A stretch of DNA of 64,000 nt, from the NCBI RefSeq assembly GCF_015097055.1, contig NZ_AP023366.1, forward strand, positions 2,879,001 through 2,943,000, given 5' to 3'. The position numbers were made by a program, and so were the translations under genes. The notes beneath the pieces are model-generated. The model had not been told where the DNA came from, made no database searches, and saw nothing but the letters and a program-made list of their open reading frames with translations. Origin of the DNA: Effusibacillus dendaii. Lineage in GTDB: Bacteria; Bacillota; Bacilli; Tumebacillales; Effusibacillaceae. How positions within the stretch are numbered: position 1 is the first letter of the stretch; the number at the start of each line of letters is the position of its first letter. This document shows positions 34,635-54,785 of this stretch, piece after piece.

Positions 34635-35873
34635 TTGCAAAACCGTACGTTTTCAGACCGCTATCAACTGGTGGAGCGTCTGGAAGCTTCGGATGGGGTT
34701 GATCTCTATCGAGCTCTTGACAATTCGTTTCCCCGCAATGTATTTATCACCGTGTTTTCCGATTGTGACAGTTCAACTGCAGACTTCTTTCGTTCTCGGG
34801 CGCAATCGCTCGCCAGCCTGACACATCACCATATTATGAGCATTTTTGATATGCAATGTACGGGAGATACATGCTTTTTAATTTCCGAATATCGGGAAGG
34901 ACTGACATTGCGGGAAACGATCCACCGCGGAGAAAGGTTTGCCCTGGAAGATGCGATTTTTATGGCCATGCATATTGCAAAGGCGGTGTCTTTCGCACAC
35001 CAGAAGCAAGTCGTGCATGGGAATCTGTCTTCCGAAATGATATGGGTGCAGGGGCGCGATATCAAGGTTTCATTTGTATGCCCTCGAACTGCCTATACTT
35101 CCGTTGAAAGTACTGAAAAATCGGATTTGGCTTCGTTAGGGACTATATTCAAAGAGTTGTTCTCAGCGACGCCGCCGTTATACAAACCGGAACTGCATAA
35201 CAAGATTTCGGAAATTATAGATCGTCTGACGGGTCAAAGGCTCCCTGTCTATGAAGATGCTTCAGATTTGGCCCATGACCTTGAGATGCTGCTTCGCAAG
35301 GATGCCAACCCCCTGTATCGTAATTTTGTGCAGGAGGAAGCGGAACAAACTCGTCCTTATTACATTACCCGCCAAGAGATGGAGGCGCTTCTGTCAGGAA
35401 AGAAGCGCGCGTTGTTTCCTCATTCATTCTACAAATTTCGATCGATCTTGAAATCGTACTTTGCTATTTTCACTGGCATTCTAACATTTATCGTTTTGAC
35501 GGCCGTTCTGTCAGGATCTGAATTGGCATCTGCACCAAACGGTTCTGCGGAAAAGCAAATCATGCCTTTGTTGGAAACGGTGCCGATTACGCTGACATCA
35601 ACTGCAAAAGCAACCGAAGCAACTCATTCTACTATTACGATCTCACCAAAAGAGCCGGTTTCAAAAGCGGGCAAGCCGATGAACGTGCCTGATCTGTCCG
35701 GCATGCAGATCGACGAGGCGGAAAACGTACTGCTCTCTTACAACATGCGGTACGTCTATTATGTTGTTTCTTCCGACGAGCTGCCTGGACGAGTAGTGAA
35801 GCAGGTGCAACAACCGGATTCTCTTTATAAACCGGGTGAGCGGATTATTTTTTATGTGAGCGGCGGAAAATAA
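34635..35873 (+). CDS. Membrane PASTA pseudokinase (PrkC-like, inactive)
   Basis: 412 residues: kinase-like domain (about 1-225), juxtamembrane part, one membrane helix (about 275-297), Thr/Ser-rich linker and one extracellular PASTA repeat (MNVPDLSGMQIDEAENVLLS onward). Key kinase residues are absent. The VAIK strand reads NVFITVF without Lys, the HRD loop is VVHGNLSSEM (no catalytic Asp), and no DFG is seen (IKVSFVCPRT). So ATP-dependent phosphotransfer is unlikely; a sensing or scaffold role at the cell wall is inferred. TTG 34635 follows GGAGGAAG. True PrkC has several PASTA repeats. Confidence 0.85.
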   Translation: MQNRTFSDRYQLVERLEASDGVDLYRALDNSFPRNVFITVFSDCDSSTADFFRSRAQSLASLTHHHIMSIFDMQCTGDTCFLISEYREGLTLRETIHRGERFALEDAIFMAMHIAKAVSFAHQKQVVHGNLSSEMIWVQGRDIKVSFVCPRTAYTSVESTEKSDLASLGTIFKELFSATPPLYKPELHNKISEIIDRLTGQRLPVYEDASDLAHDLEMLLRKDANPLYRNFVQEEAEQTRPYYITRQEMEALLSGKKRALFPHSFYKFRSILKSYFAIFTGILTFIVLTAVLSGSELASAPNGSAEKQIMPLLETVPITLTSTAKATEATHSTITISPKEPVSKAGKPMNVPDLSGMQIDEAENVLLSYNMRYVYYVVSSDELPGRVVKQVQQPDSLYKPGERIIFYVSGGK

Positions 35874-35960
35874 CGGTAAATTGTAATGCAGCATACGGTA
35901 AGAAATCGATACGATGGTTACAATGAAGAACCGATATTGACATAGAAAGGGGAATGTAAT

Positions 35961-36206
35961 ATGGATCAACGCGTTATAATTTCGATCGAATATTGTACAG
36001 CCTGAGGTTTTTTGCCCAAAACCGTCAGTGTGACGGAAGAGCTGCTTAGCAATTACACGAACAAAATTTCCGAATTAAGATTGATTCCATCCAGCGGGGG
36101 CGTATTCGAGATCAAGATCGGTGACAAATTGATCTTCTCGAAAAAAGAGTCGAACCGTTTCCCGGAACCAGGAGAAATCCTGAATTTGTCAGCGGGGCTC
36201 ATCTGA
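35961..36206 (+). CDS. SelW/Rdx-family selenoprotein (in-frame TGA as Sec)
   Basis: Translating through TGA 36003-36005 gives an 81-residue Rdx-family thioredoxin-like protein: IEYCTA-Sec-GF near residues 9-17 (CxxU redox motif), VTEELLSNYTNKISELRLIP, SSGGVFEIKIGDKLIFSKK and RFPEPGEI, all matching bacterial SelW/Rdx proteins, which have CxxC or CxxU here. ATG 35961 has AAAGGGG 8 bp upstream. The stretch after TGA has no comparable start of its own that would retain the redox motif. A SECIS-like hairpin follows the TGA. Needs selA/B/C/D elsewhere in the genome. Likely a small thiol/seleno redox protein; substrate unknown. Confidence 0.85.
36003..36036 (+). promoter_or_regulatory. Candidate bacterial SECIS element
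   Basis: UGA at 36003-36005, then stem CCGTCA (36022-36027), loop GTG (36028-36030) and TGACGG (36031-36036). The loop begins 22 nt after the UGA and its first base is G, within the usual bacterial SECIS limits (about 16-37 nt, G in the first two loop positions). An alternative stem GGTTTT/AAAACC overlaps it. Confidence 0.65.
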
Positions 36207-36220
36207 ATTCGATTAAATTA

Positions 36221-36258
36221 AAACCTTCTTCTGCCTTGTGGCGAAGAAGGTTTTTTTT
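36221..36258 (+). terminator. Terminator after the selenoprotein gene
   Basis: AAACCTTCTTC (36221-36231) / GAAGAAGGTTT (36243-36253) followed by T8. Classic rho-independent terminator 15 bp after the stop, showing that the gene is an independent transcription unit end. Confidence 0.9.
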
Positions 36259-54448: not shown

Positions 54449-54607
54449 AATGGTAATATGGGCGTGGATGCAAGGTTCAACAGTACAAGGAGATTAAGAG
54501 ATACGCCTACTCCCATATTGGAGAAAACGAACCATAATAGGTTTTGTTATTTGATCCTTGATATCCATTACAAAAAAGATTAATATAATATTGACAAAAA
54601 AATAAAT

Positions 54608-54765
54608 ATTTTGGTGCCACGAGAGTGGAGAATAGGGAAGTAAATCACACGATGTGTCCATCGCTGTATAAAGTGAGTGCATTTACATTAAAGCCACTGG
54701 TTTTACCGGGAAGGCGTAACATGCATGATGAACTTTGAGTCAGAAGACCTGCCAAAATGTGGTCC
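54608..54765 (+). promoter_or_regulatory. Cobalamin (B12) riboswitch
   Basis: Conserved elements in order: TTTTGGTGCC, GAATAGGGAAGT, a CCACTGG..CCGGGAAGG block near 54696-54715, GATGA at 54728-54732, and AGTCAGAAGACCTGCC near 54739-54754 (B12 box, consensus AGUCAGGAGACCUGCC). Lies upstream of bluB, a cobalamin lower-ligand gene. Confidence 0.85.
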
Positions 54766-54785
54766 ATACGAGAAATGACACGTTC

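Follow-up and report, generated by a model that had tools for sequence, protein, structure and literature searches.

A SelW-like gene with an in-frame UGA codon in Effusibacillus dendaii: sequence evidence for selenocysteine decoding

The selW-like gene and its surroundings

The window analysed here is a stretch of 64,000 nucleotides from the genome of Effusibacillus dendaii, a soil bacterium that forms spores (contig NZ_AP023366.1, positions 2,879,001 to 2,943,000). On its forward strand, at 35961-36206, lies a selW-like gene whose frame runs from ATG 35961 to the stop codon TGA 36204-36206, its sole interruption being another TGA, at 36003-36005, which corresponds to codon 15. When this codon is read as selenocysteine (Sec), an 81-residue product is obtained, MDQRVIISIEYCTAUGFLPKTVSVTEELLSNYTNKISELRLIPSSGGVFEIKIGDKLIFSKKESNRFPEPGEILNLSAGLI, in which the TGA occupies the second position of a CxxU motif (Cys12, Sec15), and this translation agrees with the frame that had been described in a first-pass annotation of the same DNA. 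That annotation had also assigned a ribosome site to the ATG preceding the TGA and a terminator to the region following the true stop, and both can be recognised by eye on the forward strand: AAAGGGG at 35946-35952, serving ATG 35961, and an inverted repeat with a T run, resembling an intrinsic terminator, at 36220-36258. Purine-rich sites are likewise visible 5' of the ATG in the 14 SelW copies of the order, and repeats resembling a terminator appear 3' of selW in two congeners.

The gene located upstream of selW (34635-35873, forward strand) encodes a short kinase-like domain and a PASTA domain. The usual kinase motifs are HRD and DFG; since these are not evident in its sequence (HGNLSSEMIW), it may be a pseudokinase. 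A PASTA-like end also precedes selW in two congeners, as judged by eye. Elsewhere in the window, a cobalamin riboswitch (Rfam RF00174, 78.5 bits) is found at 54595-54770 of the forward strand.

Family, predicted fold and selection

The SelW-like product matches three family models above their cut-offs: Pfam Rdx (PF10262; 79.2 bits, cut-off 22.6), NCBIfam TIGR02174 (68.9 bits, cut-off 34.2) and NF041051 (93.3 bits, cut-off 88), the last being its best NCBIfam match. All of them span both sides of the in-frame TGA, which bears out the family likeness initially perceived around that codon. The name of NF041051 (SelTWH_Campy, SelT/SelW/SelH family (seleno)protein) refers to proteins of the Campylobacter type, whereas the host here belongs to the Bacilli.

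An AlphaFold2 model, in which Cys was substituted for Sec, was obtained with a mean pLDDT of 86.4 from a protein alignment of 36 sequences (the window gene and 35 of 74 distant loci described below). It contains a strand at residues 5-12 and a helix at 18-32, and thus position 15 would be in a loop, with Cys12 at the end of the strand. The predicted location of CxxU, after the first strand of a thioredoxin-like fold and before its first helix, is that which defines the SelW-like family. In Foldseek comparisons, the same predicted fold is shared with the solved Rdx proteins 2fa8, 2obk, 3dex and 2p0g (TM about 0.8-0.9, reaching about 0.9 for 2fa8), and the sequence profile matches as well. According to the alignment, 2fa8 reads CTQC, with Cys where the E. 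dendaii protein has Sec, and 2obk, 3dex and 2p0g presumably have Cys likewise. Mouse selenoprotein W (2npb) belongs to the same family and has the same fold, with 23% identity and a TM of 0.70; eukaryotic Sec insertion relies on a different SECIS.

It could be argued that the real gene is a 64-residue frame starting downstream of the TGA, with the upstream part not translated together with it: the open reading frame listing gives such a frame from TTG 36012 to 36206, and automatic annotation might call it. However, the ribosome site stands before ATG 35961, the part containing Cys12 is conserved among relatives, and the shorter product would lack the strand with which the fold begins, all of which makes a TTG start hardly credible beside the complete 81-residue frame.

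The comparison of the window gene with two congeners gave pN/pS values of about 0.29-0.30 for codons 16-81 and of 0.33-0.43 for codons 1-14, ratios that are rough because synonymous sites are near saturation and only about eight of them exist in codons 1-14. Judged from these values, the gene is under purifying selection, its frame being maintained on either side of the TGA.

Selenocysteine machinery in the genome

The first-pass annotation had proposed a search for the Sec genes in the genome, and its selenoprotein reading came through it: selA (609.9 bits), selB (400.9 bits, over the cut-off), selD (421.6 bits; L020:9644-10699, reverse strand) and the tRNA-Sec gene selC (66.4 bits, over the gathering score; anticodon tca) were all found in E. 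dendaii, and together they constitute the bacterial Sec-decoding trait. The genes selA and selD are adjoining, and selB overlaps the last part of another frame, whose product resembles a thioredoxin reductase. An in-frame TGA is also present in selD, within AGUGCKI, and SelD itself is thus a likely selenoprotein. SelW and SelD make up a minimum list of the selenoproteins encoded in this genome. The search for the alpha subunit of formate dehydrogenase as a further Sec client gave two strong matches in the E. dendaii genome, neither of them with an internal stop.

The UGA codon in relatives

In the order to which E. dendaii belongs, 14 SelW copies were found in 13 of 14 genomes, each of them with exactly one TGA, and selA was found in all 14. 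One congener (G003), represented by an assembly of 420 contigs that is 95% complete, has selA and gave no SelW match. In a wider sample of the class (398 genomes), there are 60 SelW matches in 56 genomes, 54 of which contain one TGA, two contain two TGAs and four contain none. The 56 TGA-bearing copies sit in 53 genomes and selA is over the cut-off in every one of these, the corresponding figure for the whole sample being 85 of 398; this co-occurrence has a hypergeometric P of 6e-44, calculated with a formula that ignores shared descent. A TGA-bearing SelW is absent from 32 of the 85 selA genomes, one of which (G288) has a Cys form.

Among the matches devoid of TGA, G147 supplied a fragment that scores under the cut-off and leaves the site uncovered. 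G130, with Cys at the site, is the sole genome in which an over-cut-off SelW is accompanied by no selA match; G288 combines the Cys form with selA; and in G014 a second SelW copy, with Cys, exists alongside the TGA copy. A second SelW copy has also been observed in another genome, G005 (L110), with one codon inserted after the Sec position and a possible hairpin placed differently.

In addition, 74 distant loci belonging to many phyla were examined, with CxxU in 70 of them and CxxC in two (a Psychrilyobacter metagenome-assembled genome and Caldivirga), the motif pattern leaving two others unscored: L049, with SxxU, and the fragmentary L096, where the site is lacking. Varied stop codons and frameshifts, which the first-pass annotation had considered to be the mark of a nonsense pseudogene, were sought in relatives, and what was found instead was a constant TGA in the order and a predominant CxxU beyond it.

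The conservation of the codon also bears on how the UGA could be read. Readthrough with another amino acid (e.g., Trp, through a near-cognate tRNA), or a selenium-dependent switch in which a 14-residue product would be common, are conceivable, given that UGA can in general be read through and that, in other systems, selenium supply limits the insertion of Sec. However, every relative read has TGA or Cys at the site and none has Trp, and both a SECIS element and the Sec machinery are present, so that such mechanisms are very unlikely to account for this gene in place of Sec decoding.

The statement in the first-pass annotation that selenoproteins are uncommon in aerobic Bacillales has fared less well. 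Rarity is not upheld by the frequency of selA in the class sample, and the word aerobic is only partly apt, since E. dendaii is described as a facultative anaerobe whose anaerobic growth is weak (PMC8502169, accessible text). As far as the accessible texts go, published estimates disagree about this rarity: according to PMC13188914 aerobes rarely use Sec, whereas in PMC5029168 the aerobic share of Sec users is 40.4%.

The SECIS hairpin

Downstream of the in-frame TGA, on the forward strand, there is a hairpin at 36022-36036 with the sequence CCGTCA-GTG-TGACGG, in which the stem is formed by 36022-36027 with 36031-36036 and the loop is the GTG at 36028-36030. The limits used by bSECISearch reportedly include a hairpin directly 3' of the UGA, a G early in the apical loop and a distance of about 16-37 nt from the UGA. 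The hairpin conforms to the bacterial SECIS in position, in loop G and in spacing, which is 22 nt from TGA to loop. The folding of this single hairpin (43 nt) is not significant (z = -1.06; an equal or better fold is obtained in 27 of 200 shuffles), and the weight was therefore placed on covariation among homologues. An alternative pairing right after the TGA (GGTTTT/AAAACC), noticed by eye, is missing in both congeners and was dropped.

The alignment used for this purpose comprises 41 Bacilli homologues. Of the 56 TGA-bearing SelW copies of the class sample, 42 were submitted to the hairpin analysis, and 41 of these were aligned after L110, with its one-codon insertion, had been filtered out; the L154 copy (G388) and 13 others stayed outside the set. 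Across the 41 homologues, 98.0% of cells are paired and 37 cells show two-sided changes, against shuffled means of 82.6% and 9.2, respectively; the covariation score of 0.485 compares with a mean of 0.186 in the shuffles. None of these values was reached in 500 shuffles, with the proviso that kinship among the 41 sequences can inflate all three. Two-sided change is seen in five of the six pairs, which 13 of 500 shuffles also reach, and there are 10 further pair types, a number reached by 116 of 500. Sliding the stem partner lowers pairing to 23-51%. Compensatory stems in the homologues include CCGCGA/TCGCGG, CCGCAA/TTGCGG, CCATCA/TGATGG and CTGCCC/GGGCAG, and all 41 have G at the start of the loop. 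In L105, L132 and L159, all six pairs are formed at the fixed SECIS columns, although the greedy hairpin finder favoured another helix.

Outside this set, at least five of the six pairs are formed at the same columns in 62 of the 71 distant Sec forms (the 70 CxxU loci plus L049, which reads SxxU), while five pairs are attained in 221 of 8200 shuffles made from the 41 Bacilli sequences. With a looser search, a SECIS-like hairpin appears in 60 of these 71 loci and in 966 of 7100 plain shuffles, which means that hairpins of this kind are fairly common by chance when so sought. As for the Cys forms of the Bacilli, two pairs are left at the SECIS columns in G130, three in G288 and none in the second copy of G014. 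Among the distant ones, L033 and L039 (two of the five Cys forms examined) still have five of the six pairs, with the loop G replaced by A; this pairing could be a remnant or a coding constraint, and the result of the comparison is mixed.

In its comparative behaviour, the hairpin at 36022-36036 is that of a bacterial SECIS, the function that the first-pass annotation had attributed to a 6-bp stem with a GTG loop. This has consequences for the possibility of a pseudogene, in which the TGA would be a genuine nonsense mutation. In one genome, an in-frame TGA would look alike in either case, and the hairpin by itself falls short of significance. Among relatives, however, the internal stop is TGA, never TAA or TAG, in the 14 copies of the order, TGA-bearing SelW always coincides with selA in the class sample, the hairpin covaries, and purifying selection is apparent on either side of the TGA. 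The conserved TGA, the co-occurrence with selA and the covarying SECIS argue for Sec rather than for a pseudogene, the latter being extremely improbable.

Proposed mechanism

Thus, 35961-36206 almost certainly encodes an 81-residue SelW-like (Rdx) selenoprotein in which UGA would be decoded as Sec by means of the SECIS hairpin; the sequence evidence in its favour comprises the family, the predicted fold, the conserved UGA, the covarying hairpin and the full machinery. In bacteria, Sec insertion follows the SelA/SelB/SelC/SelD pathway (PMC1794560, PMC9312934, accessible texts). In E. dendaii, we infer that the Sec-tRNA-Sec would be made by SelA and SelD, that SelB would bind the hairpin located 3' of the UGA and bring this tRNA, and that the ribosome would then place Sec at codon 15 rather than stopping.

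The CxxU motif and the fold suggest a role as a small thiol/selenol oxidoreductase, which is the most likely activity of the protein. With Cys12-x-x-Sec15 predicted to lie where the first strand of the thioredoxin-like fold leads into the first helix, Sec15 would attack an oxidised substrate, Cys12 would resolve the Sec15 adduct as a selenenylsulfide, and thioredoxin or another thiol system of the cell may re-reduce the protein.

Relationship with known selenoproteins

SelW-like proteins with CxxU are listed among the bacterial selenoproteins in PMC9312934 and PMC13188914, and in the latter PF10262 is given as CxxU with one Sec (accessible texts). Since they are already catalogued in bacteria, the E. 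dendaii gene is to be considered a further member of a known family: it shares with those proteins the family, the CxxU motif, the single Sec and the downstream SECIS, and differs only in the host lineage (Effusibacillus, class Bacilli). As judged from accessible text, 10 SelW-like proteins were counted in 2006, with Cys homologues absent or very scarce among the organisms that use Sec, and three selenoproteins of three families were recorded for the Bacillales (PMC1794560); many more SelW genes than this Bacillales count are present in our class sample. In the accessible parts of later works, SelW-like proteins are reported in 35 organisms (PMC5029168), and SelW-like and SelD are the most widespread in ocean samples (PMC2398784).

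The double UGA form and the association with selA

Two of the SelW copies in the class sample contain two in-frame TGAs (UxxU): L160 (G152, C30:823-1035, reverse strand) and L161 (G171, C12:8288-8500, reverse strand). They belong to two species of one genus, and both genomes also have a SelW copy with one TGA. The UxxU copies read EYUTGUGFLPKAVS, with the TGAs 12 nt apart and one SECIS, at a distance of 34 nt from the first TGA and 22 nt from the second. Between L160 and L161, dS is 1.6 and dN 0.14 (dN/dS about 0.09), and the maintenance of both TGAs at such divergence argues against decay. A double-Sec SelW could form a diselenide. A precedent for two Sec residues in one motif is provided by the UxxU Prx-like bacterial selenoproteins (documented in PMC9312934, PMC13188914 and PMC2398784), which are peroxiredoxin-like and not SelW. 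In the accessible text of the reviews (PMC9312934, PMC13188914), UxxU is given for other families, and SelW-like proteins only as CxxU with one Sec. In a literature search that covered subscription journals thinly, and which is therefore weak evidence of absence, no report on E. dendaii selW or on a UxxU SelW was recognised.

Among the 53 genomes with TGA-bearing SelW, at least 13 have selW and selA on one strand, with selW 49-689 bases upstream (e.g., L154-L157), an arrangement that is absent from the E. dendaii genome. The count was made with 20 of the 86 over-cut-off selA matches, picked by eye as possible neighbours, so that 13 is a minimum; the distances were taken between matched stretches, not between gene ends. 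This arrangement and the UxxU form are possibly the newer points of the present analysis.

Matches to formate dehydrogenase alpha with a TGA (E <= 1e-120) were found in only eight of the 53 genomes (G001, G006, G014, G032, G046, G103, G152 and G254), a one-sided comparison, as this enzyme was sought in the 53 genomes selected by SelW plus G003; 17 of the 23 first-look candidates were scored in G006, and 17 of 21 in G171. The presence of TGA-bearing SelW in 53 of the 85 selA genomes, the few formate dehydrogenases with TGA, the proximity of selW to selA and the UxxU form suggest that SelW is an important Sec client in the Bacilli. That it might be a main reason why many Bacilli keep Sec decoding is a tentative and rather doubtful proposal, to be taken as a lead, not as a result.

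Taken together, an apparent pseudogene of E. dendaii becomes a selenoprotein gene, in an order of the Bacilli where all the genomes examined carry selA, and the comparative set yields a clean SECIS with compensatory changes. In the Bacilli, selW appears as a frequent partner of selA and includes an unusual double-Sec form. According to the accessible text of the reviews, the function of most predicted selenoproteins of this kind is unclear, and a culturable facultative anaerobe would be convenient for its study.
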